Below are positions 132 through 24,132 of a DNA stretch of 24,132 nucleotides, piece after piece. The first letter of the stretch is position 1, and the number at the start of each line of letters is the position of its first letter. The DNA is from a virus. The stretch spans positions 1 to 24,132 of the IMG/VR virus record IMGVR_UViG_3300031977_000416; one strand, 5' to 3'. The position numbers were made by a program, and so were the translations under genes. Below the pieces are notes generated by a model that searched no databases, was not told the DNA's origin, and saw only the letters and a list, made by a program, of their open reading frames with translations.

Positions 132-139
132 TGTATAAT
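132..139 (+). promoter_or_regulatory. Probable promoter -10 box of the structured RNA and capsid unit
   Basis: A perfect TATAAT lies at 134-139, immediately after the stop codon of the upstream gene. The expected transcription start, about 7 nt downstream at 146-147, falls just before the first strand of the predicted RNA closing helix at 151. That is the arrangement expected for a promoter dedicated to this RNA. The -35 region is weak: TGGACT at 113-118 matches TTGACA in four positions but with a short 15-nt spacer. Confidence 0.55.
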
Positions 140-146
140 ATACTTA

Positions 147-310
147 TGCGTTGCGTGGTCCGCTGACAATAGACCTGCAAATCGGCTTTCAATGCCTGCG
201 TGGAAAGCTTGTACAAAAACCGCAGAGTAATGGACTTATAGCTTGAAGCTACCAGAGATGTAAGTCAAGTGGTAAAGGTAGCACCACGGCAAGATGCCTA
301 TGGTCTTGTC
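147..310 (+). ncRNA. Candidate structured RNA with two tandem H-type pseudoknots
   Basis: This stretch has no credible ORF and is richer in G+C (about 47% by hand count over 151-310) than the AT-rich genes around it. Base pairing seen by eye: closing helix P1, 151-159 with 283-292 (9 bp, one bulged G). First pseudoknot: 184-190 with 203-209 (7 bp, one G-U) whose loop bases 196-200 pair with 221-225 (5 bp); its third loop, 210-220, is A-rich. Second pseudoknot: 233-240 with 259-266 (8 bp, one U-G) interleaved with 248-253/277-282 (6 bp). The 3' strand of that last helix abuts P1, so they could stack. A small hairpin, 290-294 with 304-308, competes with the end of P1. I recognise no known RNA family. 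It could act in cis on the scaffold/capsid genes or as a free RNA. Confidence 0.6.
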
Positions 311-339
311 TGAAGGTTAATACATAGTGGAGGTACTAA

Positions 340-1963: not shown

Positions 1964-1986
1964 GGAATAAGATAATTTCAAGATTA

Positions 1987-2014
1987 GGGTAGGAACTCCA
2001 CCTCCTGCCCTTTT
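1987..2014 (+). terminator. Rho-independent terminator after the capsid gene
   Basis: GGGTAGG at 1987-1993 pairs with CCTGCCC at 2004-2010 (seven pairs, one T-G) around a 10-nt loop. The stem is followed directly by TTTTCTT. It starts 23 bp after the capsid stop codon and lies just before the next promoter, so it should separate the abundant scaffold/capsid transcript from the tail genes. Confidence 0.75.
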
Positions 2015-2018
2015 CTTG

Positions 2019-2027
2019 TGCTATTAT
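2019..2027 (+). promoter_or_regulatory. Extended -10 promoter of the tail gene block
   Basis: TGC-TATTAT, an extended -10 element, ends 8 nt before the ATG at 2036. Transcription would start at about 2034, leaving a leader of roughly two bases and no ribosome binding site. It sits immediately 3' of a terminator hairpin. No good -35 box is seen, and the normal -35 position is inside the terminator stem. Confidence 0.6.
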
Positions 2028-2035
2028 AGAAAAAT

Positions 2036-15540: not shown

Positions 15541-15839
15541 TCCTCCTCTGGATTATAAAGCTCGTATTTAACTGTAATTTCTTCGCCTGTAATTATTTCT
15601 ACTAATGTTCTTAATAAAAAAACTTTATTACCTTTTATTAATTCACAATTAGGAAAATTACTATGGTTTATAAATCCACCTAGTGGTGTACGAATTACAC
15701 CGTGTTGAAATAGTTTATCTTTAACGTGAGTAATACCTAGCACTTTACCCTTAGCGATAGGACGTGTACTAAAGAGGCCCAAGCCTTCCACTTTGGACCT
15801 CTTTATAGTTAATGATTTAGGTAATGGTTTATATTTCAT
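15537..15839 (-). CDS. SET-domain protein, probable lysine methyltransferase
   Basis: A minimal 100-aa SET domain. Hallmarks: the cofactor-binding start SKVEGLGLFSTRPIAKG (G19-x-G-x-F), the knot segment GGFINHSNFPNCEL (N-H-S at 58-60, replacing the usual N-H-S-C with a later Cys), and ITGEEITVKYELY (G85-E-E-I-T with the active-site-type Tyr). The post-SET zinc region is absent. SET enzymes move methyl groups from S-adenosylmethionine to lysines. A phage copy could modify a host or virion protein. I chose the Met at 15839 because the longer upstream frame lies inside the previous gene and does not look like SET sequence; the two genes then overlap by 11 bp. The 3' end EEE encodes the ribosome site of the HNH gene. 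Confidence 0.8.
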   Translation of the reverse strand: MKYKPLPKSLTIKRSKVEGLGLFSTRPIAKGKVLGITHVKDKLFQHGVIRTPLGGFINHSNFPNCELIKGNKVFLLRTLVEIITGEEITVKYELYNPEEE

Positions 15840-16446
15840 CAGGATAACTGTATACAGTTTCAGGATTGAAGTATGGGTCATACTCTGGAAAATCCCAAGC
15901 TCTATACAAATCTGCGTAACTAATATCTGTAGGGCCAGTACCACCACCTACATATATAGCGTGTGCTACTTTACTTAAAAAGAATTTAGTAACTTTCTTT
16001 TTATAAAAACCTTTATGATTTTTAGCGTCAGCTAAGTTCTTAAGACGCTGTAACCAATATAAAGTTTTCACTGTTACTTCACCACGTTGATGTGATATCT
16101 TTCTTGTAAGCTGGTCGTCTGTATCATATATTGTTTCGTTATGTTTATATGAATAACGTTGGCCAGCAAACATAGAACCTTCCTGTAATAAGACTGATAA
16201 GTTATGAGTAAAGTCTATTTTTAAATTACCGTCTTTATATACAGTGTAACTAGCAAATACCCTATTGCCCTTTGGCGTCAAGCCAAGAAATCTCTTTCCG
16301 CCAAAGCTATCTATTGTTTTAGCGTACTCCATCTTAGCTTTACGTTTCTTAATTTTACGTTTAGCTTGTTCTACTAATTGGTCATTAGATAAATCATTGT
16401 AACCTTTAGGTGCAAATACGCTATTATTGGTCGCGTTATAAACCAC
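15829..16446 (-). CDS. Unrecognised basic protein (205 aa)
   Basis: It starts with GTG at 16446, directly after an AAGGAGGA ribosome site. The N-terminal 40 residues are helical and very basic (QAKRKIKKRKAKMEYA). A beta-rich middle follows (GLTPKGNRVFASYTVYKDGN; LKIDFTHNLSVLL), then TVKTLYWLQRLKNLADA and a Tyr/Pro-rich end (YADLYRAWDFPEYDPYFNPE). No Cys/His metal site, no membrane helix, no known motif. The gene overlaps neighbours on both sides, so it belongs to the early operon. Charge suggests nucleic-acid contact, but this is weak. Confidence 0.6.
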   Translation of the reverse strand: MVYNATNNSVFAPKGYNDLSNDQLVEQAKRKIKKRKAKMEYAKTIDSFGGKRFLGLTPKGNRVFASYTVYKDGNLKIDFTHNLSVLLQEGSMFAGQRYSYKHNETIYDTDDQLTRKISHQRGEVTVKTLYWLQRLKNLADAKNHKGFYKKKVTKFFLSKVAHAIYVGGGTGPTDISYADLYRAWDFPEYDPYFNPETVYSYPDEI

Positions 16447-16532
16447 TATTCCTCCTTACACTTATGTACTTCTTCTAGTTGTACATTACATTCTTCACAA
16501 TAATATGACATACCTGGTATAGGATGTGACAT
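16446..16532 (-). CDS. 28-aa putative zinc-knuckle microprotein
   Basis: A very short gene between tightly coupled neighbours. The start shares bases with the upstream stop (TAATG at 16532), and the stop at 16446 shares a base with the next GTG start. The protein contains C-x-x-C then H-x-C (SYYCEECNVQLEEVHKCKEE), a complete CCHC-type set of zinc ligands. The last codons, AAG GAG GAA, are also the ribosome site of the next gene. Without this gene 16447-16531 would be the only gap in the block. It may be a real micro-zinc finger or mainly a translational coupler. Confidence 0.5.
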   Translation of the reverse strand: MSHPIPGMSYYCEECNVQLEEVHKCKEE

Positions 16533-16717
16533 TATTCTTCTTCTCGTTTCTTTTGTTGTTCAAATTGGTAGTTATAATCTGATACAAATTGTGCTAACAA
16601 TTTATCAACTTCTTTTGTATTAGGTCCAGTCTGTGTAACTGGAGAACCTAATTGGTCTATTAAATTAACTGCCCACTTTCTCAGTTGCATAGGGCTGCTA
16701 AATATATTTTCTGTCAT
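16532..16717 (-). CDS. Small unrecognised protein (61 aa)
   Basis: I chose the ATG at 16717, whose A is the last base of the upstream TAA (TAATG); the longer frame lies inside the lysozyme-like gene. The protein MTENIFSSPMQLRKWAVNLI continues with a Gly/Pro/Thr linker (GSPVTQTGPNT) and a charged helix (KLLAQFVSDYNYQFEQQKKR). It looks like a small helical protein with a flexible joint. Function is unknown; its place after a cell-wall enzyme gene gives no firm clue. Confidence 0.6.
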   Translation of the reverse strand: MTENIFSSPMQLRKWAVNLIDQLGSPVTQTGPNTKEVDKLLAQFVSDYNYQFEQQKKREEE

Positions 16718-17124
16718 TAAGTGTCCTTCCAACAATGTGCGCTTGGATTCCAATGGTGCCAACCGTCATTGTATATAAGCCAAGATGCTACTGCTGTAGC
16801 TGTCTCTGGGTCTGTCCTTTTCTTTTTGATTTTAAGTTTAGGTTTAAGCCAAGTCCAAGTATTGTCATTAAACTGCCATAAACCTATGTCGTATGTACCG
16901 TCTTTATTAAGTCCTTTAGCGTATTTATTACCTCTACTTTCACAATAAATAATCTTTAACGCCTGTATTTTGTCATCTGTTGTGTCAAAATATTTGTTAA
17001 CTAATGGTTGCCATTCTTTAACATACTCAATCATATATACGTCATCACGACATTGGATATACTCAGTCAAGCTCTCCACGCTCACAGGCAATGTAACTGC
17101 GCAACTGAGTAATATACCAATCAT
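16717..17124 (-). CDS. Secreted lysozyme-like / SLT-type muralytic protein
   Basis: A 135-aa protein with a signal-peptide-like start (MIGILLSCAVTLPVSVES, cleavage likely near 18) and a compact lysozyme-like domain (about 40-130). It shows ALKIIYCESRGN with E62 as the probable catalytic Glu, then DGTYDIGLWQFNDNTW, the G-L-W/M-Q-x-N helix-strand of SLT/goose-type enzymes, and SWLIYNDGWHHWNPS. Such enzymes cut the glycan strands of peptidoglycan. Gene position in the minus-strand block, away from the plus-strand holins, and the export signal suggest a use other than holin-gated lysis, such as a signal-dependent endolysin. It lies 2 bp after the HTH gene. Confidence 0.8.
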   Translation of the reverse strand: MIGILLSCAVTLPVSVESLTEYIQCRDDVYMIEYVKEWQPLVNKYFDTTDDKIQALKIIYCESRGNKYAKGLNKDGTYDIGLWQFNDNTWTWLKPKLKIKKKRTDPETATAVASWLIYNDGWHHWNPSAHCWKDT

Positions 17125-17126
17125 AA

Positions 17127-17435
17127 TTAGGCTTGTTGTCTAGATTTATGTAGACGTTTGCTTTTAGCCATTTCTTTACGTGTATCGTTTGGTGTAGATA
17201 TTACGTAGTATTTAAAATGACCACGTTCTTTAGCTGGCATAGTAACAATGTCATACCCTTCTTCCCTAAGGTTAAACAATGTTCCACCAAATCGTGTACA
17301 TCTTAAGTCAAATACAAATTCACTATTACTAATAGGTTCATTGTATCTTTCTGTTTCTAGTACGTACCTAATTAAGTTCTCTTTAGACTTAATATAACTA
17401 GGGATTTTTTTACCCCTAAATGATTTTACAATCAT
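17127..17435 (-). CDS. Helix-turn-helix protein
   Basis: I chose the ATG at 17435 because an AAGGAGGA ribosome site precedes it; the upstream in-frame Met would overlap the previous gene by 25 bp. The 102-aa protein has a compact DNA-binding-like domain at about 18-65: SKENLIRYVLETERYNEPIS, then VFDLRCTRFGGTLFNLREEG and YDIVT. This matches the HTH_42-type pattern (helix, 'R-x-x-x-x-L-x-x-x-G-Y-x-I' end). The C-terminus is basic (RKEMAKSKRLHKSRQQA). It could be a phage regulator of the early operon or a structural DNA binder. Confidence 0.7.
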   Translation of the reverse strand: MIVKSFRGKKIPSYIKSKENLIRYVLETERYNEPISNSEFVFDLRCTRFGGTLFNLREEGYDIVTMPAKERGHFKYYVISTPNDTRKEMAKSKRLHKSRQQA

Positions 17436-17443
17436 ATTCCTCC

Positions 17444-17989
17444 TTATAATTCGTTGGTTATATTCCACTCATCTGGTAAATCAGAGTTGTCCATCCACCA
17501 ACTTTTTCTCCACTTTCCACTATGTCCACCGCATATAGCAGGGTCATTTGTAGAGCATACAAAGTCAGGACTTTTGTCTGACTTCTTATTGTTTCTGTTA
17601 TCGTAAACCATTTGGCCACAATAAGGGCATTTCAAATCGTCACGATATGCTTTCTTTTCTTCCAATTTGTTAACTACTTTCTCTACTACATTAGATATAT
17701 CTGATACAGTAACAACATCAGCAGTTTCTAACGTTGTTATTTTTTCTTCCAAAGACATTTGGTCAAAGTCATTTGGTATCTTTGCCTCTAAAGTACCTGA
17801 TAATTTTTCTAACATTCCAAGATATTTATCCAATTGCTCATCATTCCATTGTTCTTTATTGTTAGGGAACTTCTTAAGCTTGGCATAATCATTGGCTTTA
17901 CCTATAACGTTTCTACGTATGTCTGCATCTTTAATATGTTCAGTCATAGTAGCAACTGTTTGTGCTATGAATTGTATATCTTGTGCCAT
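17444..17989 (-). CDS. Zinc-ribbon protein, partner of the Rad52-like gene
   Basis: A 181-aa protein with an alpha-helical N-terminal part (about 1-115; TEHIKDADIRRNVIGKANDY; VVEKVVNKLEEKKAY) and a C-terminal zinc ribbon: C121/C124 in KCPYCGQ and C145/C153 in FVCSTNDPAICGG, followed by GKWRKSWWMD, probably an aromatic contact surface. Small ssDNA-related zinc-ribbon proteins commonly follow phage annealing-protein genes. The first codon overlaps the last base of the Rad52-like stop (17989), so the pair is co-translated. Loading or regulation of the annealing protein is the likely role. Confidence 0.65.
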   Translation of the reverse strand: MAQDIQFIAQTVATMTEHIKDADIRRNVIGKANDYAKLKKFPNNKEQWNDEQLDKYLGMLEKLSGTLEAKIPNDFDQMSLEEKITTLETADVVTVSDISNVVEKVVNKLEEKKAYRDDLKCPYCGQMVYDNRNNKKSDKSPDFVCSTNDPAICGGHSGKWRKSWWMDNSDLPDEWNITNEL

Positions 17990-18594
17990 TAGAAAGGTGG
18001 CTCTTCTGTTTTAACCTCTGCTTTAGGTTCTTCAGTGTTACCACCATCAGCATTGAGTATGTCATCCATAATAGAGTTCATACGTTCAATGTCTTCTTTA
18101 GTAGGTTTGTTTTCTTTCTTACGCATATCAACTTTAGTAACCTCAACCATTGCGTCTTTCTCAGCCATCTCTTGTGTATAGCCATCAGGTGCAATAGTTG
18201 TAGCTTCTTCTTCTGATTGTACAGAACCAGACCATAGTTCTACACCTAAGCCAAACCTCATACAAGCTCTCTTGAATGCGTCTGACTCTGCGTCTTTAAG
18301 ATTACTTCCATCGTTAAACTTATCACTGTTTAACTTGAAAGTATCAACATCGCCAAAGCCAACGTAGCTACCCATATCTTCAATAGTTATGGTGCCTTTA
18401 GCTCCGACAATCCTTTTCTCTCCTTTGTGTATACCATATACAGGTTCACACTCCCAGGAATATGACACACCACTATCACGTAGTCTTTCTACATAGTTAG
18501 CGTGTGGTACATAATCCCCAAACTTTCCAGCTGGTGCTTTTCGCACTAAGTTCTCTGGAAATGGGGATAGCAATTTCTTGGTATCTTTTACCAT
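17989..18594 (-). CDS. Rad52-like single-strand annealing protein (Sak type)
   Basis: A protein of about 201 aa; an AAGGAGA ribosome site precedes two ATGs (18597, 18594), and the second has better spacing. The core matches the Rad52/Sak pattern: YVPHANYVERLRDSGVSYSW, then a beta-hairpin (GEKRIVGAKGTITIEDMGSY), VGFGDVDTFKL and the highly characteristic DAESDAFKRACMRFGLGVEL helix. The last 70 residues are acidic and low in order (KTEEPPF at the end), a tail type used by phage annealing proteins to contact SSB or partners. It pairs complementary single strands during phage DNA recombination and concatemer formation. A conserved hairpin lies in its 5' leader at 18620-18649. Confidence 0.85.
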   Translation of the reverse strand: MVKDTKKLLSPFPENLVRKAPAGKFGDYVPHANYVERLRDSGVSYSWECEPVYGIHKGEKRIVGAKGTITIEDMGSYVGFGDVDTFKLNSDKFNDGSNLKDAESDAFKRACMRFGLGVELWSGSVQSEEEATTIAPDGYTQEMAEKDAMVEVTKVDMRKKENKPTKEDIERMNSIMDDILNADGGNTEEPKAEVKTEEPPF

Positions 18595-18619
18595 CATTCT
18601 CCTTTTCATATTCGTTGTA

Positions 18620-18655
18620 GGCCTTAATAACCCAAGAGGGAATAAGGCCGTCTGT
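18620..18655 (-). promoter_or_regulatory. Conserved leader hairpin, copy 1 (before the Rad52-like gene)
   Basis: Minus-strand RNA reads ACAGAC box (18655-18650), stem GGCCUUA/UAAGGCC (18649-18643 with 18626-18620, 7 perfect pairs), internal UU and UUAU bulges, an inner CCC/GGG helix and a UCUU tetraloop. The same apical motif and ACAG box recur at 23508-23546 with a different, equally perfect stem. It begins directly after the stop of the 52-aa gene. There is no T-run after the stem, so it is unlikely to be a terminator and better fits a regulatory or processing element. Confidence 0.6.
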
Positions 18656-18814
18656 TTATTCTTGTGTTAAAACTTCTAATTGAGTTACGCCACGTTCAAT
18701 AGGTATAAACCTTATTCCTAGTTCGTCATTAATAACGAAGTAAGGTTGACTACCTATGCCAGCGTATTCAATTGCTATTGTCTTAACAGTAGAATTGACA
18801 TTCTCTCTTGACAT
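18656..18814 (-). CDS. Small unrecognised protein (52 aa)
   Basis: ATG at 18814 to TAA at 18656. The protein (MSRENVNSTVKTIAIEYAGI ... GVTQLEVLTQE) is beta-rich with YFVINDELGIRFIPIERGV and no metal ligands or membrane helix. It has no ribosome site; a TATAAT box lies 9 nt before the start, so the message may begin within 2-3 nt of the ATG. Function is unknown. Position just before the Rad52-like gene and its leader hairpin suggests it heads a recombination transcript. Confidence 0.6.
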   Translation of the reverse strand: MSRENVNSTVKTIAIEYAGIGSQPYFVINDELGIRFIPIERGVTQLEVLTQE

Positions 18815-18823
18815 ATCTATCCA

Positions 18824-18829
18824 ATTATA
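18824..18829 (-). promoter_or_regulatory. Promoter -10 box (minus strand) before the 52-aa gene
   Basis: A perfect TATAAT on the minus strand (18829-18824) starts on the base right after the TAG stop of the phosphoesterase gene. The ATG at 18814 is 9 nt downstream, giving a leader of 2-3 nt. No -35 match is clear. The same 'stop codon then TATAAT' layout is found at 129-139 on the plus strand. Confidence 0.5.
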
Positions 18830-19894
18830 CTAGACATTATCTAAATTAACAAGGTATTCAGCTGTTACTCCTGCACCATCTTTGCAAAATAACAACCATT
18901 GACAAGGTTTGCCCATACTTGCTAACTGTTCTAACGCATATGTGTTGTAGCTTTCGGTACTTCCATTAACCCATAACCTAATACCATTAAGGTACATTGT
19001 TGTAGGTGTATGAAAGTGTCCTGCTATAGCCATATCAAATGGCTTCATCATACCGTTAGCTGCTAATGTTTTCCAGCCTTGTAACTTTTTACCGAAACCA
19101 TACCAGGGAAATCCATTAAATCCTCTGACATTATCTCCGTGCCATAATAGAAACTTACAATTATCTCCAAGGTCTGCTATATCAAACCAATGATTATCGT
19201 TAGAACTATCTGGTATTGTCCATTTAATTCTTTTTTCGTCTCTATATATCATTGACATTATGCTTCCAAGCATTCTATCTGCGTTACTATCTGGGTGATA
19301 ATCTTTTCTTGACCTTCCACCAAGATGTCCGTGATTACCAATAACCCAATGAACATCTACTTCTGCAAAGTTTGCTAATAAGATATCAAAGAACTGCGTC
19401 ATTATTCTAGGACCGTCTATCGTTACTTGTTTGTATAGTGAACTATCAATTAAGTGTGATTGTCCTGGGAATATTAATTCTCCTTCTATGATATCTCCTA
19501 CTGCAAACACTGCACATTTGTTTACTGGGTGTGATTTACGTTGTAGATTTGCTAACTCAACTATCTTATGTGCGTATTCAATTACTCTTGCTTCAGCAAT
19601 TTCTGAATTATATTCAGGTGTTACTTTAGCTAATTGTATATCAGATAAAACAGCTATTGCTATTTCTTCTTTCTTTGAACTTTTACTTAAGATAGGTTTA
19701 GGTATTTTAGGTTTATCCCAAGTCCTTAAGTTAGTATCTACTGCTTGATACACTGCGTCTACCATATCTGCTTTTTTGTTTTTAGCTTTATCAAGTTGTT
19801 TTAAAAGATTTAAGTTATCTTTTTTTAGGTCTTGAATTTGCTTTGACTCAGCTTCAGCAAGCATATCTTCTATGTTTATTTTTTTATTTGGCAT
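18830..19894 (-). CDS. Calcineurin-like metallophosphoesterase
   Basis: A 354-aa protein. An N-terminal coiled coil (about 11-45; MLAEAESKQIQDLKKDNLNL) precedes a full metallophosphoesterase core: motif I VLSDIQ (D85, with Gln87 where the family usually has His), motif II VGDIIEG (D134), motif III IGNHGH (N187, H188), a later metal His in LLWHGDN (H252) and motif V AGHFHTP (H293, H295). The residues bind two metals that cut phosphoester bonds. Phage members of this type are thought to process DNA ends, possibly like SbcD, but the substrate is not known. The gene overlaps the small gene before it by 11 bp, suggesting a two-protein unit. Confidence 0.85.
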   Translation of the reverse strand: MPNKKINIEDMLAEAESKQIQDLKKDNLNLLKQLDKAKNKKADMVDAVYQAVDTNLRTWDKPKIPKPILSKSSKKEEIAIAVLSDIQLAKVTPEYNSEIAEARVIEYAHKIVELANLQRKSHPVNKCAVFAVGDIIEGELIFPGQSHLIDSSLYKQVTIDGPRIMTQFFDILLANFAEVDVHWVIGNHGHLGGRSRKDYHPDSNADRMLGSIMSMIYRDEKRIKWTIPDSSNDNHWFDIADLGDNCKFLLWHGDNVRGFNGFPWYGFGKKLQGWKTLAANGMMKPFDMAIAGHFHTPTTMYLNGIRLWVNGSTESYNTYALEQLASMGKPCQWLLFCKDGAGVTAEYLVNLDNV

Positions 19895-20123
19895 TATATA
19901 ACTTTTCTAAATAGTTAGTCATTGCCGTGTCAGATATTCTAATATCAAAATTGTCTTTCAATATTCTTGTTAAAGTATATGATTTCATTTTGACATTATC
20001 TTCTGTGATTCTTTTTTTAACTGCTTCCCAAAACTCAGCGGCTTCAGGAGTAATTCTACTTTCTACGAAATTACCCCTGGAACCATACTGTGCTTCGTCC
20101 AACAGTTTATTTATGTCTACCAT
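19884..20123 (-). CDS. Small HTH-like partner of the phosphoesterase (79 aa)
   Basis: A helical 79-aa protein: KLLDEAQYGSRGNFVESRIT, then TPEAAEFWEAVKKRITEDN, and a C-terminal MKSYTLTRILKDNFDIRISD, TAMTNYLEKLYNAK. The last third reads like a small helix-turn-helix (DFDIRISDTAMTNYLEKL). Its start has no ribosome site; an extended -10 box ends 7 nt before the ATG, so the transcript is probably leaderless. It heads the phosphoesterase unit and could act as a regulator or DNA-targeting subunit. No family is recognised. Confidence 0.6.
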   Translation of the reverse strand: MVDINKLLDEAQYGSRGNFVESRITPEAAEFWEAVKKRITEDNVKMKSYTLTRILKDNFDIRISDTAMTNYLEKLYNAK

Positions 20124-20130
20124 ACAAAGT

Positions 20131-20139
20131 AGTATAGCA
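20131..20139 (-). promoter_or_regulatory. Extended -10 promoter (minus strand) of the phosphoesterase unit
   Basis: TGC-TATACT on the minus strand ends 7 nt before the ATG at 20123, so the predicted start site is at about 20124. TTGTAT lies 15 nt upstream of the -10 box and is a possible but short-spaced -35. It shares the TGC-TAnnnT form and spacing with plus-strand promoters at 2019 and 10577. Confidence 0.6.
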
Positions 20140-20171
20140 GAATATAAATTAATACAAATGAATTGAAGAGA

Positions 20172-20234
20172 AAGGTTGGCACTTACCCTGGGAAAGGAGG
20201 ACCAGACCAGCCGCTAAACTGTGATGCCAACCTT
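20172..20234 (-). terminator. Long hairpin, probable terminator and divergent copy of the leader-hairpin family
   Basis: AAGGTTGGCA and TGCCAACCTT (20172-20181 and 20225-20234) form a perfect 10-bp inverted repeat with a 43-nt loop. On the minus-strand RNA the stem is followed by UUUCUCUU, a terminator-like tail, and it starts 7 nt after the stop of the VWA gene. The loop carries an ACAGU (20222-20218), a GGCUGGU (20212-20206) and UUUCCCAGGGUAAG next to the 3' arm, which resemble the parts of the two clear hairpin copies. GGCUGGU could pair imperfectly with the 3' arm (one mismatch, one U-G), so two foldings compete. Confidence 0.55.
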
Positions 20235-20241
20235 GCCCTTA

Positions 20242-21741
20242 TTATAACTGATTAAGTTCTAAAGCAAATTTCTTTACTTCATCTATATCAGCTAATCTAG
20301 TAATGCCAGACTTCCTCATAATCTGGTTACATTCTTTTAATAAATTTGCACTGCTTGTATTATCTGCACCAAATACATACATATCTGATACCCATATACG
20401 TTTAGGTGCTTGTTGAGATAACCAACGTAGTGCTGGACCATCTACTAAGTTACCTCCACCTGTCCACTTATCTAAGTATTCTTGATTAACACGTTTACCT
20501 TTGTCACCAATAATACGTAATGAACCTACATCATAGCTATATCTTCTTTGTGTTTTGTTATTAGTTGAGTTATACATAGCTATTTTTACAGCAGGTAACA
20601 TCTGCATTATTTCTAAGATGTCATCACCAGTAAAGTGCATAGAACCTGATGCGTCTATTAAGATAGTACCACCATAAGTACGTTGTCTTTGTTTAAAGAC
20701 TTTCTTATCTACGCACCATCTATTCATATACTTAGGATTAACACCGTAATCCATAGGCCTATACTCTCTACCACCTTTGATTTTACCTTGAAGGTTTACA
20801 GATAATTCTGGTGTGTATATTTCCATACGACCCCATCTACCTGTCATATCATTGATGTCTGGTTCATAGTTCATATCAGCACTTGCTAATATTTCAGACA
20901 TTTCATACTTACTTTCAAGCATAGATTCTTCCAATGTTTTGTTGTCACTTTCGCCTTCGGCTTGTGACTTACTAGCATTGCGATTAGCAGATTGTTTTTG
21001 TTTAGCAGCTTCTTTAGCTTTACGTATTGATTCATAAACCTGTTCGTCTGTTGGACGTTCGCTAAAATCATCACGTAATTTGCTAAGTTCTTTTGCTACT
21101 TTACGAACTTTACGATAACTAACCATAGTTGCGTAAGTATGTCTATTTTGTAGAATATTTCTATAGAACTTATTAGCTCTATTTAAAGCCCAATCTAATT
21201 GTGCTTTTCTATAACCAGTTAATTCTCCAGAGTCTTGCACTTCTTTACATAGTTTTAAGAAGTTTTTATATTCTGGATTGTTAGGTTCACGATTCCAGTA
21301 GTAATGATTATCATCTGTTACGTGCCACATCTTAGACATAAGATAAGTAATAAGTTCATATTCTGAAAACTTGTATATAGCTTCATAATCTAAACGTGTT
21401 ACTTTATCTGGACACATAACCCAGTCTTTTATCTCTAATCCTTTGCGACCTAGTAAATAATTAATTCTTACTTCTTCGCAAACTTCTACAGAGAATGAGT
21501 CTTCGTCTTCACCAAGTTTACCTACAGTCATTGGTGACCATTTGACGTGACCTAGTTCGTGTCGTCTGATATATTTTGAGTGATTAATGCCACATTCTGT
21601 ACATTCATTGTCTAAAGGTACGTGCATTTCTTTAGACATATTAGATGTACGTGGCTGGTCAGCGTCTTCAAAGATACGCCAACCAGCTTTACCAGATACT
21701 ATCTCTGGGAATGGTGCATTAACGTGATTATTCTTCCTCAT
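20242..21741 (-). CDS. Metallopeptidase-like plus VWA-domain protein (CobT/DUF2201-type), partner of the AAA+ ATPase
   Basis: A 499-aa protein. N-terminal: CTEC (C47, C50), then RRHELGHVKW with a complete H-E-x-x-H (H61-E62-H65) and a later E-E-V-R-I-N (E89/E90), as in zincin-type domains of VWA partners. A charged linker (about 235-285, KAKEAAKQKQSANRNASKSQ) leads to a VWA domain with a full metal-ion site: GGTILIDASGSMHF (D363, S365, S367), GGGNLVDGP (428-436) and VSDMYVFG (D453). MoxR/CobS-like ATPases and such VWA proteins work as pairs to remodel or insert metal into target proteins. The gene overlaps the ATPase by 14 bp. The usual cobalamin-synthesis label is unlikely here. Confidence 0.8.
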   Translation of the reverse strand: MRKNNHVNAPFPEIVSGKAGWRIFEDADQPRTSNMSKEMHVPLDNECTECGINHSKYIRRHELGHVKWSPMTVGKLGEDEDSFSVEVCEEVRINYLLGRKGLEIKDWVMCPDKVTRLDYEAIYKFSEYELITYLMSKMWHVTDDNHYYWNREPNNPEYKNFLKLCKEVQDSGELTGYRKAQLDWALNRANKFYRNILQNRHTYATMVSYRKVRKVAKELSKLRDDFSERPTDEQVYESIRKAKEAAKQKQSANRNASKSQAEGESDNKTLEESMLESKYEMSEILASADMNYEPDINDMTGRWGRMEIYTPELSVNLQGKIKGGREYRPMDYGVNPKYMNRWCVDKKVFKQRQRTYGGTILIDASGSMHFTGDDILEIMQMLPAVKIAMYNSTNNKTQRRYSYDVGSLRIIGDKGKRVNQEYLDKWTGGGNLVDGPALRWLSQQAPKRIWVSDMYVFGADNTSSANLLKECNQIMRKSGITRLADIDEVKKFALELNQL

Positions 21742-22471
21742 TAAGCTTGCCTAAATCTTGTAGGTTTGCTTCATCTGATAATGTAATCGCGTCAAGAAGT
21801 TCTTCACCTCTCTCACCAAACACTAACTGAGCTGCAATGTTCTTGTCAACTTGCTTAGCGGTTAAGTCAAAGAACTCTTTCCAGCTACGTATAGATAGTC
21901 TTGTGTCCATATCTTCTGATAAAGATGTATCAGATACGACTTTATGCCAAGATTTAGGAAAGATAGACAGTGCTTTAGGGTGAATTGTATCAACCTTAAT
22001 CTTTACTGGGAACCTATCTTTCAATGCCATAGGCAAGCTATCTGGTTCTGAGTTGGTTGTTGCTATAACAGTAAAGCCTTCTTTAGGTCTTACTGTTTCT
22101 TTGTTGTCATTGTTAAGTGTCAACTGTGCAATTGCTTTGTCATCCATAATGGCGTGTAAGAATGTCATTGCGTCTGGTGATGCGTGGTCAATCTCGTTGA
22201 CTACCAATCTACCACCTGTACGCCACGCTTGTATTGCAATACCATCGTGCCATTCAAAGCCACCTGCATTGTTAGGTTTATAAAAACCTTCTAAGTTTGC
22301 ACTAGCTGTATCTTCTGTCATTGTTATCTGATACACATTAGGTTCTCCGTCCATATTGTATCCGATTTTATTTGTTGCAGCTGCATATGTTTTACCTGTG
22401 CCTGGTGGCCCGTATAACAATATTCTGTCTGCGTTACCAATAGCGTTAGCTACTAAGTTCCAACAATCCAT
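21728..22471 (-). CDS. MoxR/CobS-type AAA+ ATPase
   Basis: A 247-aa AAA+ protein. Walker A at 21-28 (LLYGPPGTGKTYAA), pore-loop-like segment ANLEGFYKPN, Walker B LVVNEIDHA (89-97), sensor 1 VIATTNS (135-141), and the Arg-finger-like D-R-F-P (R153). SIRSWKEFFDL in the C-terminal lid is a typical sensor 2 region. It lacks accessory domains and is close to the minimal size for the MoxR group. It should form a ring that uses ATP to act on a client together with the VWA/metallopeptidase protein encoded next (14-bp overlap). It overlaps the previous gene by one base. Many phages carry this pair; its client is not known. Confidence 0.85.
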   Translation of the reverse strand: MDCWNLVANAIGNADRILLYGPPGTGKTYAAATNKIGYNMDGEPNVYQITMTEDTASANLEGFYKPNNAGGFEWHDGIAIQAWRTGGRLVVNEIDHASPDAMTFLHAIMDDKAIAQLTLNNDNKETVRPKEGFTVIATTNSEPDSLPMALKDRFPVKIKVDTIHPKALSIFPKSWHKVVSDTSLSEDMDTRLSIRSWKEFFDLTAKQVDKNIAAQLVFGERGEELLDAITLSDEANLQDLGKLNEEE

Positions 22472-22782
22472 TAGATTGTCTCCTTTCTGTTAGGGATATA
22501 TCTACAATAAATGCCTACATATCCATTATCTTTTTTACGTTGTTTAATTTCGAATCTACCTTTGTCTTTCAAGTGTCTAATATTTGATTGTTTCATACTC
22601 TCAATATTCTTTTTAACACCTGATATCCATTTATCAGATTCGCCAATTAAATACCACACTTCTGGTGTGGATAGTAAAGTTTGTACCTTTGCATCTGTTA
22701 ATAGTGTTGGTTGTTTACCGCTTCTACTTAAACCAGCTGCTGGTGGTTCTTCTCTAGTAATGTCATTGTTAACAATACCCAT
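22471..22782 (-). CDS. Unrecognised small protein upstream of the ATPase (103 aa)
   Basis: It starts in a TAATG overlap preceded by a GAGGAG ribosome site in the 3' end of the gene before it. The N-terminus is disordered (GIVNNDITREEPPAAGLSRS). The remainder is folded: LLSTPEVWYLIGESDKWISG, then KKNIESMKQSNIRHLKDKGR and FEIKQRKKDNGYVGIYCRYI, a beta-hairpin-like, basic end. The middle helix pair plus basic wing could be a small winged-helix DNA binder. No known family. It overlaps the ATPase start by one base. Confidence 0.6.
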   Translation of the reverse strand: MGIVNNDITREEPPAAGLSRSGKQPTLLTDAKVQTLLSTPEVWYLIGESDKWISGVKKNIESMKQSNIRHLKDKGRFEIKQRKKDNGYVGIYCRYIPNRKETI

Positions 22783-23291
22783 TACTCCTCCTCTTGATTA
22801 GCCCAATTAGCTACGTCAGATATAAATGCGTCTGACTTTTCAATAAATTGATTCTCCATATCTAGATGTATCATATCTTTGTTAGCTACTAACAAGCAAG
22901 ATATTGTTGTAGGTTCAGTATTAAACCATTGTCCAAACTGGTCTTTATCTATAAGAAAACCATACATATCTTCTAATAACTTAGGTGTTAATTCTTCACC
23001 GTGGTCATTTTGTAAATGTTCTGTAATGCTTGGCCAAGTAGCTGCTACTTCCATTTTACGTGTATCATCTAGTTGTTTTGCTTGTGCAATTGCATTAATC
23101 ATTGACACATCATTGACAATATAAGTAAATATAATTACATCATTATCATCTAACTCAGCCCAAGCTAATACATTATCTTCACTTTGTTCAGCAGTTTTGT
23201 TGTGTTTATCTGCTTTATGATATGACATAGTTACTTCGTATTTATGTTGCGCCAATTTAGGTGCTTTTTGTATGTAAGCATTTCTACTCAT
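22782..23291 (-). CDS. Unrecognised protein (169 aa), AAA/VWA operon
   Basis: Mixed alpha/beta protein: MSRNAYIQKAPKLAQHKYEV, a beta-strand pair (NVLAWAELDDNDVIIFTYIV), VSMINAIAQAKQLDDTRKME and LLEDMYGFLIDKDQFGQWFN, then a final acidic helix (SDAFISDVANWANQEEE). No metal or nucleotide motif. It is co-transcribed with the ATPase module (overlapping the small gene before it by 4 bp and that after it by 1 bp). It may be a module-specific adaptor or client. Function unknown. Confidence 0.6.
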   Translation of the reverse strand: MSRNAYIQKAPKLAQHKYEVTMSYHKADKHNKTAEQSEDNVLAWAELDDNDVIIFTYIVNDVSMINAIAQAKQLDDTRKMEVAATWPSITEHLQNDHGEELTPKLLEDMYGFLIDKDQFGQWFNTEPTTISCLLVANKDMIHLDMENQFIEKSDAFISDVANWANQEEE

Positions 23292-23488
23292 TGTTCTTCT
23301 CCTTTCAAATTCTTATCATATGCTTTGTTAACTTGATACTCTACAGCTTCAGATAACATAGCACACCATCCTTTGACTTTCTCATCAAGTCCTGAATAAT
23401 TATTCGCAGCATTTTTTAAATCATTAACAGTCCAGTTAATAACTTGTATAAGTTGCGAATGTGTCAAGCTCTCTAATTTGTCTTGCAT
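23288..23488 (-). CDS. Small helical unrecognised protein (66 aa)
   Basis: An all-helical, acidic protein: MQDKLESLTHSQLIQVINWT, VNDLKNAANNYSGLDEKVKG, then WCAMLSEAVEYQVNKAYDKN. It has a strong ribosome site (GAAAGGAGAATATG) and follows the second leader hairpin (23508-23546), making it the gene directly downstream of that element. Function unknown; a helical dimer is likely from heptad-like spacing. Confidence 0.6.
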   Translation of the reverse strand: MQDKLESLTHSQLIQVINWTVNDLKNAANNYSGLDEKVKGWCAMLSEAVEYQVNKAYDKNLKGEEQ

Positions 23489-23507
23489 ATTCTCCTTTCA
23501 ATTAGAA

Positions 23508-23546
23508 GGGCTGGTATGAACCCAGAAGGGAAAACCAGCCCGACTG
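23508..23546 (-). promoter_or_regulatory. Conserved leader hairpin, copy 2 (before the 66-aa gene)
   Basis: The minus-strand RNA reads (A)CAGUC box (23546-23542), stem GGGCUGGU/ACCAGCCC (23541-23534 with 23515-23508, 8 perfect pairs), UUU and UUCAU internal loops, inner CCC/GGG helix and a UUCU tetraloop. It starts directly after the stop of the 77-aa gene, as copy 1 does after its upstream stop. UUCUAAUU follows the stem, so weak termination is possible, but the conserved apical motif suggests a specific binding or folding role. Confidence 0.6.
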
Positions 23547-23780
23547 TTACTTGTTATTTTTGATACGTTGTTTGTAAACGCGTTCATCAATAACTACATT
23601 GTCTGTATCTTTAAATGTCTTTTGCTTTGGTGCATTCGTATCCCCATACGTTATTACTGTTTTACCAAATGCTCTTGACACTGCTATTACAGGCAAACTT
23701 TTATGACCTATTGTAATTAATTCATCATTTTCTGTTACATCTTTAGCATATCTAGATACACCGTGACTACAAGCTTTCAT
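23547..23780 (-). CDS. Small unrecognised protein (77 aa)
   Basis: The protein has a short N-terminal Cys/His stretch (MKACSHGVSRYAKDVTENDE) followed by beta-strand alternation (ELITIGHKSLPVIAVSRAFG, KTVITYGDTN) and a basic end (VYKQRIKNNK). A small beta-barrel is plausible. It starts in a TAATG overlap with the gene before it, and its stop is followed within six bases by the second conserved hairpin. No family recognised. Confidence 0.55.
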   Translation of the reverse strand: MKACSHGVSRYAKDVTENDELITIGHKSLPVIAVSRAFGKTVITYGDTNAPKQKTFKDTDNVVIDERVYKQRIKNNK

Positions 23781-24132
23781 TATTCTTCTTCTACTATTAT
23801 TTCAACAGCAGCTTTATCAATAGCTACGCGTTGAGCATCTAGTGATTTAGCCCAAGTATTATCTAATTCAGCACGTTGTAGTATTGGCATTGGATAATTA
23901 CTTAACCCAGCATTATCAAACTCAACATCCCAAACATTTTTGATAGTTAAGCTGTATTTATTTGCTATGTCATCAAGCAATAAAAATGGTTCACCCCAAG
24001 CTGATTCAAAATTAAGTACTAATGTTGTTTCAGTTTCTTTGAGGATTTCTGTATTACAGTCACCCCATTTAGTACCCCAGTTTTTATATTGCCAATCAAT
24101 GCTATCCATAGCACCTGTTAGTTTAAGTATTT
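23780..24132 (-). CDS. YubB/Api92-type ferredoxin-fold-like protein (probably partial, 5' end outside window)
   Basis: The C-terminal part is clear: NWGTKWGD followed by ETTLVLNFESAWGEPFLLLD, the W-G-T-K-W...F-x-S-A-W-x-x-P hallmark of the DUF1281/YubB-like family. A Met at 24109 gives 109 aa, but the frame stays open to the window edge (ILKLTGA before that Met), no ribosome site precedes it, and in the family this motif normally follows an N-terminal part. I therefore regard it as partial. Members are common on phages and plasmids; their function is not established. The gene ends in a TAATG overlap with the next. Confidence 0.65.
   Translation of the reverse strand, partial: ILKLTGAMDSIDWQYKNWGTKWGDCNTEILKETETTLVLNFESAWGEPFLLLDDIANKYSLTIKNVWDVEFDNAGLSNYPMPILQRAELDNTWAKSLDAQRVAIDKAAVEIIVEEE

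Follow-up and report, generated by a model that had tools for sequence, protein, structure and literature searches.

A hairpin kept at early-gene junctions of marine phages linked to Actinobacteria, a proposed boundary in early mRNA

Intercistronic hairpins that block decay or shield 5' ends after cleavage have been described in puf, papBA and many E. coli operons (PMC5927463). In phage T7, the RNase III sites of the early mRNA (R1.1 and others) are imperfect hairpins between co-transcribed early genes that separate cistrons into mature mRNAs, and they offer a precedent for boundaries within early messages (PMC8708148; PMC4858673). The ESAS/SAS elements of cluster K mycobacteriophages and cluster EF Microbacterium phages present inverted repeats just upstream of early-region ribosome-binding sites; they lie in larger intergenic gaps and their function is unknown (PMC3203893, PMC7302621). 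Here we describe a hairpin that shares features with all of these. It occurs twice in a window of 24,132 nucleotides, the whole stretch of phage DNA analysed (IMG/VR record IMGVR_UViG_3300031977_000416), and we file it neither under SAS/ESAS nor under RNase III sites.

As in T7, the hairpins are imperfect and lie between co-directional early phage genes. However, a T7 site is a long stem carrying a proximal, a middle and a distal box, and sites of this type have roughly two turns of double helix, whereas hairpins of the window's phage group have 10-11 Watson-Crick pairs, and the cleavage that separates T7 cistrons is something we infer for the present hairpins. The position just upstream of early-region ribosome-binding sites recalls ESAS/SAS. 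In cluster K, though, the ESAS inverted-repeat arms are conserved and stand next to a 13-bp SAS, whereas the present element conserves its tip and leaves the arms free to vary. Arms differ between copies and only the base GG..CC and the tip recur, so there is no ESAS-like arm consensus. Searching the window for the 13-bp SAS gave a single match with three mismatches, fewer than expected by chance and not at these genes. With the decay-block hairpins of puf, papBA and E. coli differential decay (PMC5927463), the element shares an intercistronic position, the lack of a U-tract and the primacy of structure over sequence; it differs in that its tip is conserved in one group and its position is kept family-wide. 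It also departs from lambda nut/boxB in that a GNRA-like loop is absent, the loops being UCUU, UUCU, CCCU, ACAC and UACU.

Both window copies are on the minus strand. Copy 1 (18620..18649) reads GGCCUUA-UU-CCC-UCUU-GGG-UUAU-UAAGGCC, with GGCCUUA at 18649-18643, CCC at 18640-18638, GGG at 18633-18631 and UAAGGCC at 18626-18620; including its flanks (18617..18655) it has ACAGAC 3' of the upstream stop codon and UAC 3' of the stem. A small ORF of 52 aa (18656..18814, minus) ends at UAA 18658-18656, 6 nt before the stem. Downstream lies the gene for a Rad52-like single-strand annealing protein (SSAP; 17989..18594, minus; PHROG 3290, E 2.3e-10; Pfam PF04098, E 2.7e-4), whose likely start at 18594 we infer from the spacing of the Shine-Dalgarno (SD) sequence AAAAGGAG near 18606-18599, 13 nt past the copy 1 stem. 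Copy 2 (23508..23541) reads GGGCUGGU-UUU-CCC-UUCU-GGG-UUCAU-ACCAGCCC, with GGGCUGGU at 23541-23534, GGG at 23523-23521, ACCAGCCC at 23515-23508 and CAGUC between stop and stem. It follows an ORF of 77 aa (23547..23780, minus; stop UAA 23549-23547, 5 nt before the copy) and precedes the gene for a 66-aa three-helix protein (23288..23488, minus), whose orthologues in related phages are also preceded by a hairpin.

Much of what the preliminary description had claimed can be read directly from these letters: the outer stems differ in sequence and are fully paired (7 and 8 bp), both copies carry the UU(U)-CCC-N4-GGG-UU apex, and both downstream genes share the early-gene strand. Two details needed revision. 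The CCC of the apex becomes YCC in several copies from relatives. The ACAG box said to follow the stop codon is present in copy 1 (ACAGAC), but in copy 2 its first A belongs to the stop codon, and across relatives it is replaced by GAGAAC, GAGAC, ATTAGAC or TTTAGAC; what recurs there is limited to AC-GG at the stem base and, on the 3' side, CC-UAC.

Folding energies were -16.1 kcal/mol for copy 1 (z -3.9) and -21.8 kcal/mol for copy 2 (z -4.9), and no shuffle was equally good. Chance does not explain the two copies: when the window was shuffled 400 times at first order, no shuffle contained a TTCCC-N4-GGGTT hairpin whose stem had at least 7 pairs. No Rfam model among 4227 reached its gathering cut-off for the hairpins, a permissive Rfam scan of 18300-24132 returned chance matches only, away from the hairpins, and we found no account of the element in the open-access literature. 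The hairpin is a real, previously undescribed RNA signal.

For a search of relatives, a covariance model, R1, was built from an ungapped alignment (A3) of five distinct hairpins that included neither window copy. It matched copy 1 at 18615-18653 (E 2.5e-10) and copy 2 at 23503-23545 (E 4e-7); because copy 1 has its stem in common with two training copies, copy 2 tests the model more independently. Outside the training set, R1 identified the 66-aa-gene leader of phages G010 (E 7.7e-10) and G008 (3.2e-8), with weaker matches to the leader of a gene for a 116-aa protein (MSSEITT...) in G010 (0.005), G008 (0.04) and G034 (0.2). The further copies that had been predicted for relatives were therefore found, and at orthologous gene leaders: the element is present at three of them (SSAP, 66-aa and 116-aa) in four divergent phages, whose orthologous proteins are only ~40-64% identical. 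Flanking UUAG/CUAA often extends the hairpin by an outer helix in the 66-aa and 116-aa leaders. Neither protein had an informative match in our searches, and the 116-aa protein gave a low-confidence structure model (pLDDT 67) with no PDB match at E <0.1.

The near-identical phage G001 (35.5 kb) contains four CCC-N4-GGG-TT sites, all on the early strand, with none on the opposite strand and none in the reversed control. Its real sites are the two of the window and the third leader, that of the 116-aa gene. A site at 17921-17883 (minus) falls within a zinc-finger/SSB-like ORF whose protein motif LPxWV accounts for CTTCCC...TGGGTT; its R1 score was just 12.8 bits (E 0.8), and it was rejected as a coincidence. 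Applied to 80 loci, or ~1 Mb of relatives, R1 gave no convincing match beyond the window's group. Matches to the pattern ACAG-N-CGG...TTCCC-N4-GGGTT across IMG/VR were likewise dismissed as chance beyond close relatives, and the pattern with CCTACTA gave four matches, two real and two by chance.

MAFFT alignments of all copies (A1, A2) placed the tips out of register. Covariation was therefore scored on the ungapped five-copy A3 and on A4, an alignment of 16 matches that was fitted to the model and so leans towards structure. Covariation was 0.473 in A3 against 0.200 in shuffles, with 92.7% of cells paired and four pairs changed on both sides; A4 gave 0.459 against 0.199 when shuffled, with 27 doubly changed cells and five pairs having changes on both sides. 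None of 500 shuffles was as high in either case. Compensatory changes affected five of the eight lower-stem pairs, which bears out the selection for structure claimed from the two window stems. In the apex helix of three tip pairs, 0/45 cells were broken and 10/45 were U.G wobbles. Because an apex U.G would be a mismatch on the other strand, sense RNA is likely the functional strand in the window's group. Also kept in this group are the YCC-N4-GGG tip and an internal loop rich in pyrimidines (UU x UU..).

Leaders of SSAP genes were re-derived by tblastn with the window protein, giving 169 loci and 64 distinct leaders. On inspection of the folds, all 64 hold a hairpin in the spacer that separates the upstream stop codon from the SD, and in many relatives this hairpin begins immediately past the stop. 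Among 35 distinct SSAP leaders tested, the median z was -3.24 and 32 fell below -2; the corresponding values for 31 distinct 66-aa-gene leaders were -4.33 and 29, and for random windows of the same contigs -0.29 and 6 of 80. Many relatives' hairpins have 13-22 Watson-Crick pairs. Leader types at the SSAP gene are mutually unrelated. They include CCC/GGG tips, variable stems capped by a UAAC tetraloop, and long stems interrupted by UC x UC or C x C internal loops. Within the UAAC type (C-UAAC-G; L037, L216, L222, L225, L237, L268, L269, L271), stems include GGUAUCC, GGGACC, GUAACC, GGACUAC and GGCUGC. As stem sequences are unrelated between groups, structure rather than sequence is kept. Tetraloops are commonest (37 of 63 hairpins), and stem mismatches are mostly pyrimidine-pyrimidine (23 vs 5 purine-purine).

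These comparisons narrow the claim of a conserved loop on a variable stem, which stands within the window's phage group and fails in more distant relatives. Most of the 64 distinct SSAP leaders lack the CCC/GGG apex, an outcome that the preliminary description had itself named as refuting; the refutation is only half realised, since these leaders fold other hairpins in its place. What the family conserves in general is therefore the presence of a hairpin at these junctions, and the CCC/GGG apex is a dialect peculiar to one phage group. SSAP and 66-aa hairpins of the same genome were more alike than hairpins across genomes (p 0.003-0.01), although this signal weakened to p 0.09-0.22 and then 0.3-0.6 on exclusion of the window group plus one or two further groups. 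The genomes whose two hairpins share a tip or internal loop are those of the window group, L032, L047, L065 and L025. On the SSAP tree the CCC/GGG type is clustered but does not form one clade, and L127 sits on a long branch, a pattern that tentatively suggests that leader type tracks the genome more than the gene.

The window's capsid protein most resembles capsid proteins of mycobacteriophages and other actinobacteriophages, and an SSAP 85% identical to the window's occurs in a metagenome-assembled genome (MAG) titled Actinomycetota. Together these make a marine actinobacterium the likely, not proven, host. A near-DNA search of public and isolated phages with the window found no near relative. 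In the MAG (~1.1 Mb), the hairpin model matches the phage-bearing contig only, at two places.

What the hairpin does must be argued from its place and its evolution. The preliminary description had included a small ligand sensor among its suggestions; nothing favours this in a single hairpin of ~30 nt, and it is unlikely because the hairpin's sequence is replaceable. In the sites read, the stem leaves the SD free, which also makes a switch acting on the ribosome-binding site unlikely. A partial terminator or attenuator could reduce transcription into the downstream gene, as a G+C-rich hairpin between genes might suggest, and under loose settings a terminator scan accepts part of copy 2, with tail TTCTAATT. 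Copy 1 was not called by that scan, however, and we judge termination very unlikely because there is no U-tract (UACAACGA and UUCUAAUU follow the two stems), a promoter has no room between hairpin and SD, and strong U-tract terminators are present elsewhere in the same genome. Even less probable is a DNA-level palindrome or mobile repeat, whether as a protein site, a recombination boundary or a selfish repeat. Antisense folding equals sense folding in much of the family, similar hairpins recur at several junctions of one genome, and leader type departs from the SSAP tree in places, all of which a DNA element would accommodate. It would not account for the fixed place after the stop and before the SD, the single orientation or the sense-strand wobbles in the apex of the window's group, and the stems are too divergent for recent copies.

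With the terminator, SD switch and ligand sensor unlikely, there remain processing, a decay block or a separation of translation. In the last case, the hairpin would stop terminating ribosomes from sliding to, or re-initiating at, the next start, and the downstream gene would use its own exposed SD. The SD outside the stem agrees with this, as does the distance from the stop codon, 5-9 nt in most copies of the group and none in many relatives. Such an insulator would need neither a conserved tip nor an internal loop, though, and at the 116-aa-gene site in two phages the hairpin lies ~50 nt beyond the nearest upstream stop, which leaves us decidedly sceptical of it. We regard as doubtful that the primary role is recognition of the YCC-N4-GGG tip and U-rich internal loop by a phage or host factor co-regulating translation, or processing, of three early genes. 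In favour of a recogniser, four phages share the tip and the base flanks (AC-GG ... CC-UAC) across three unrelated genes, and SSAP and 66-aa hairpins are alike within a genome. That likeness fades with the removals described above, other relatives' hairpins at the same sites lack the tip, and no candidate binding protein emerged, the 66-aa and 116-aa products included.

Our preferred, still tentative, proposal is that the hairpin is a cis-acting intercistronic boundary in polycistronic early mRNA, acting in processing, as a decay block, or both; it probably marks where the phage mRNA is cut, protected or split into independently read genes. The hairpin lies between one gene's stop codon and the next gene's ribosome-binding site on an early mRNA whose co-transcription of flanking genes was judged from their spacing. 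The transcript would be cut at or beside the hairpin, exonucleases would be halted by it, or both, and the SSAP, 66-aa and 116-aa genes would then fall on separate mRNA segments with differing stability and independent translation. This proposal rests on where the hairpin sits, on its structure and compensatory evolution, on its return at orthologous junctions and on the absence of a U-tract. A recognised RNA signal or processing site, also among the preliminary suggestions, is a fair reading, and antitermination or protein binding, likewise suggested there, may or may not play a part. Against it, the 10-11 Watson-Crick pairs of the window copies are short for an RNase III site, the conserved apex exceeds the needs of a passive block, and strand asymmetry in the wider family is slight: antisense folds slightly better than sense in 27 of 35 SSAP leaders, and sense-only wobbles show a modest excess (13 vs 6 antisense-only). 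Greater stability of sense over antisense was accordingly rejected as a general property.

The conserved tip in the window's group suggests, at lower confidence, a specific recogniser in addition to the boundary role; tip and U-rich internal loop would fit recognition by a particular putative nuclease or protein. If a specific factor reads the tip, the hairpins would define a phage post-transcriptional regulon. In an extended form that we consider unlikely, each lineage would keep its own tip dialect at the same early junctions, read by a co-evolving phage or host nuclease or RNA-binding protein, and recombination and other early genes would form one such regulon. The element constitutes a new RNA family, though its kind is known, and its mechanism is a proposal. 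In marine phages linked to Actinobacteria it represents an RNA element not described before, one in which a hairpin is kept at given junctions while its sequence is almost free. R1 allows its annotation, and post-transcriptional punctuation of phage early mRNA becomes testable by comparative genomics.

Other structured elements were observed in the window and its relatives. At 132-339 (plus), ~205 nt of non-coding, strongly folded sequence has 84% mean column identity across four divergent phages, starts with TGTATAAT and ends in the SD of the gene preceding the capsid gene; with compensatory changes in three pairs and no Rfam match, it looks like a structured late-leader RNA. After the capsid gene, a hairpin AGGGUAGGAAC..CACCUCCUGCCCUUUUCUUG at 1964-2035 (plus) has a similar counterpart at the same place in G010, G008, G011 and G034. 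The exonuclease-gene leader at 20124-20241 (minus) resembles a three-way junction whose closing stem compensates in G008 (AAGGUUGGCA/UGCCAACCUU vs AAGGAUGGCG/CGUCAUCCUU) around an invariant CUGGUCCUCCUUUCCCAG; it ends in CUUUCUCUU, beyond which comes an AT-rich stretch resembling a promoter. A structured leader of a zinc-finger/SSB-like gene (L108 18017-18099, minus; L209, G034 29534-29610) conserves ACUUGAAAGGAGC ... CCAU ... AUGG ... GAAGU in a long stem, with an SD-like AAAGGAG within the structure.

Several phages carry long hairpins built on AGCUACUUACA ... UGUAGGUAGCUUGUAGCACAUA, at times two in tandem (L108 15580-15734; L111, G010 25058-25210; L022 4432-4520; L065 5028-5132). The motif GCAAAATAAAGACGA occurs just past terminators or ahead of early-gene leaders (L108 18450-18620; L111, G010; L113/L114, G008 17541 and 19063). 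Many small early proteins of these phages, in the window at 22782-23291 and in 15829-24109 (minus) generally, end in EEE or EEQ, and at overlapping junctions the codons for these residues (GAGGAGGAA) double as the next gene's SD.
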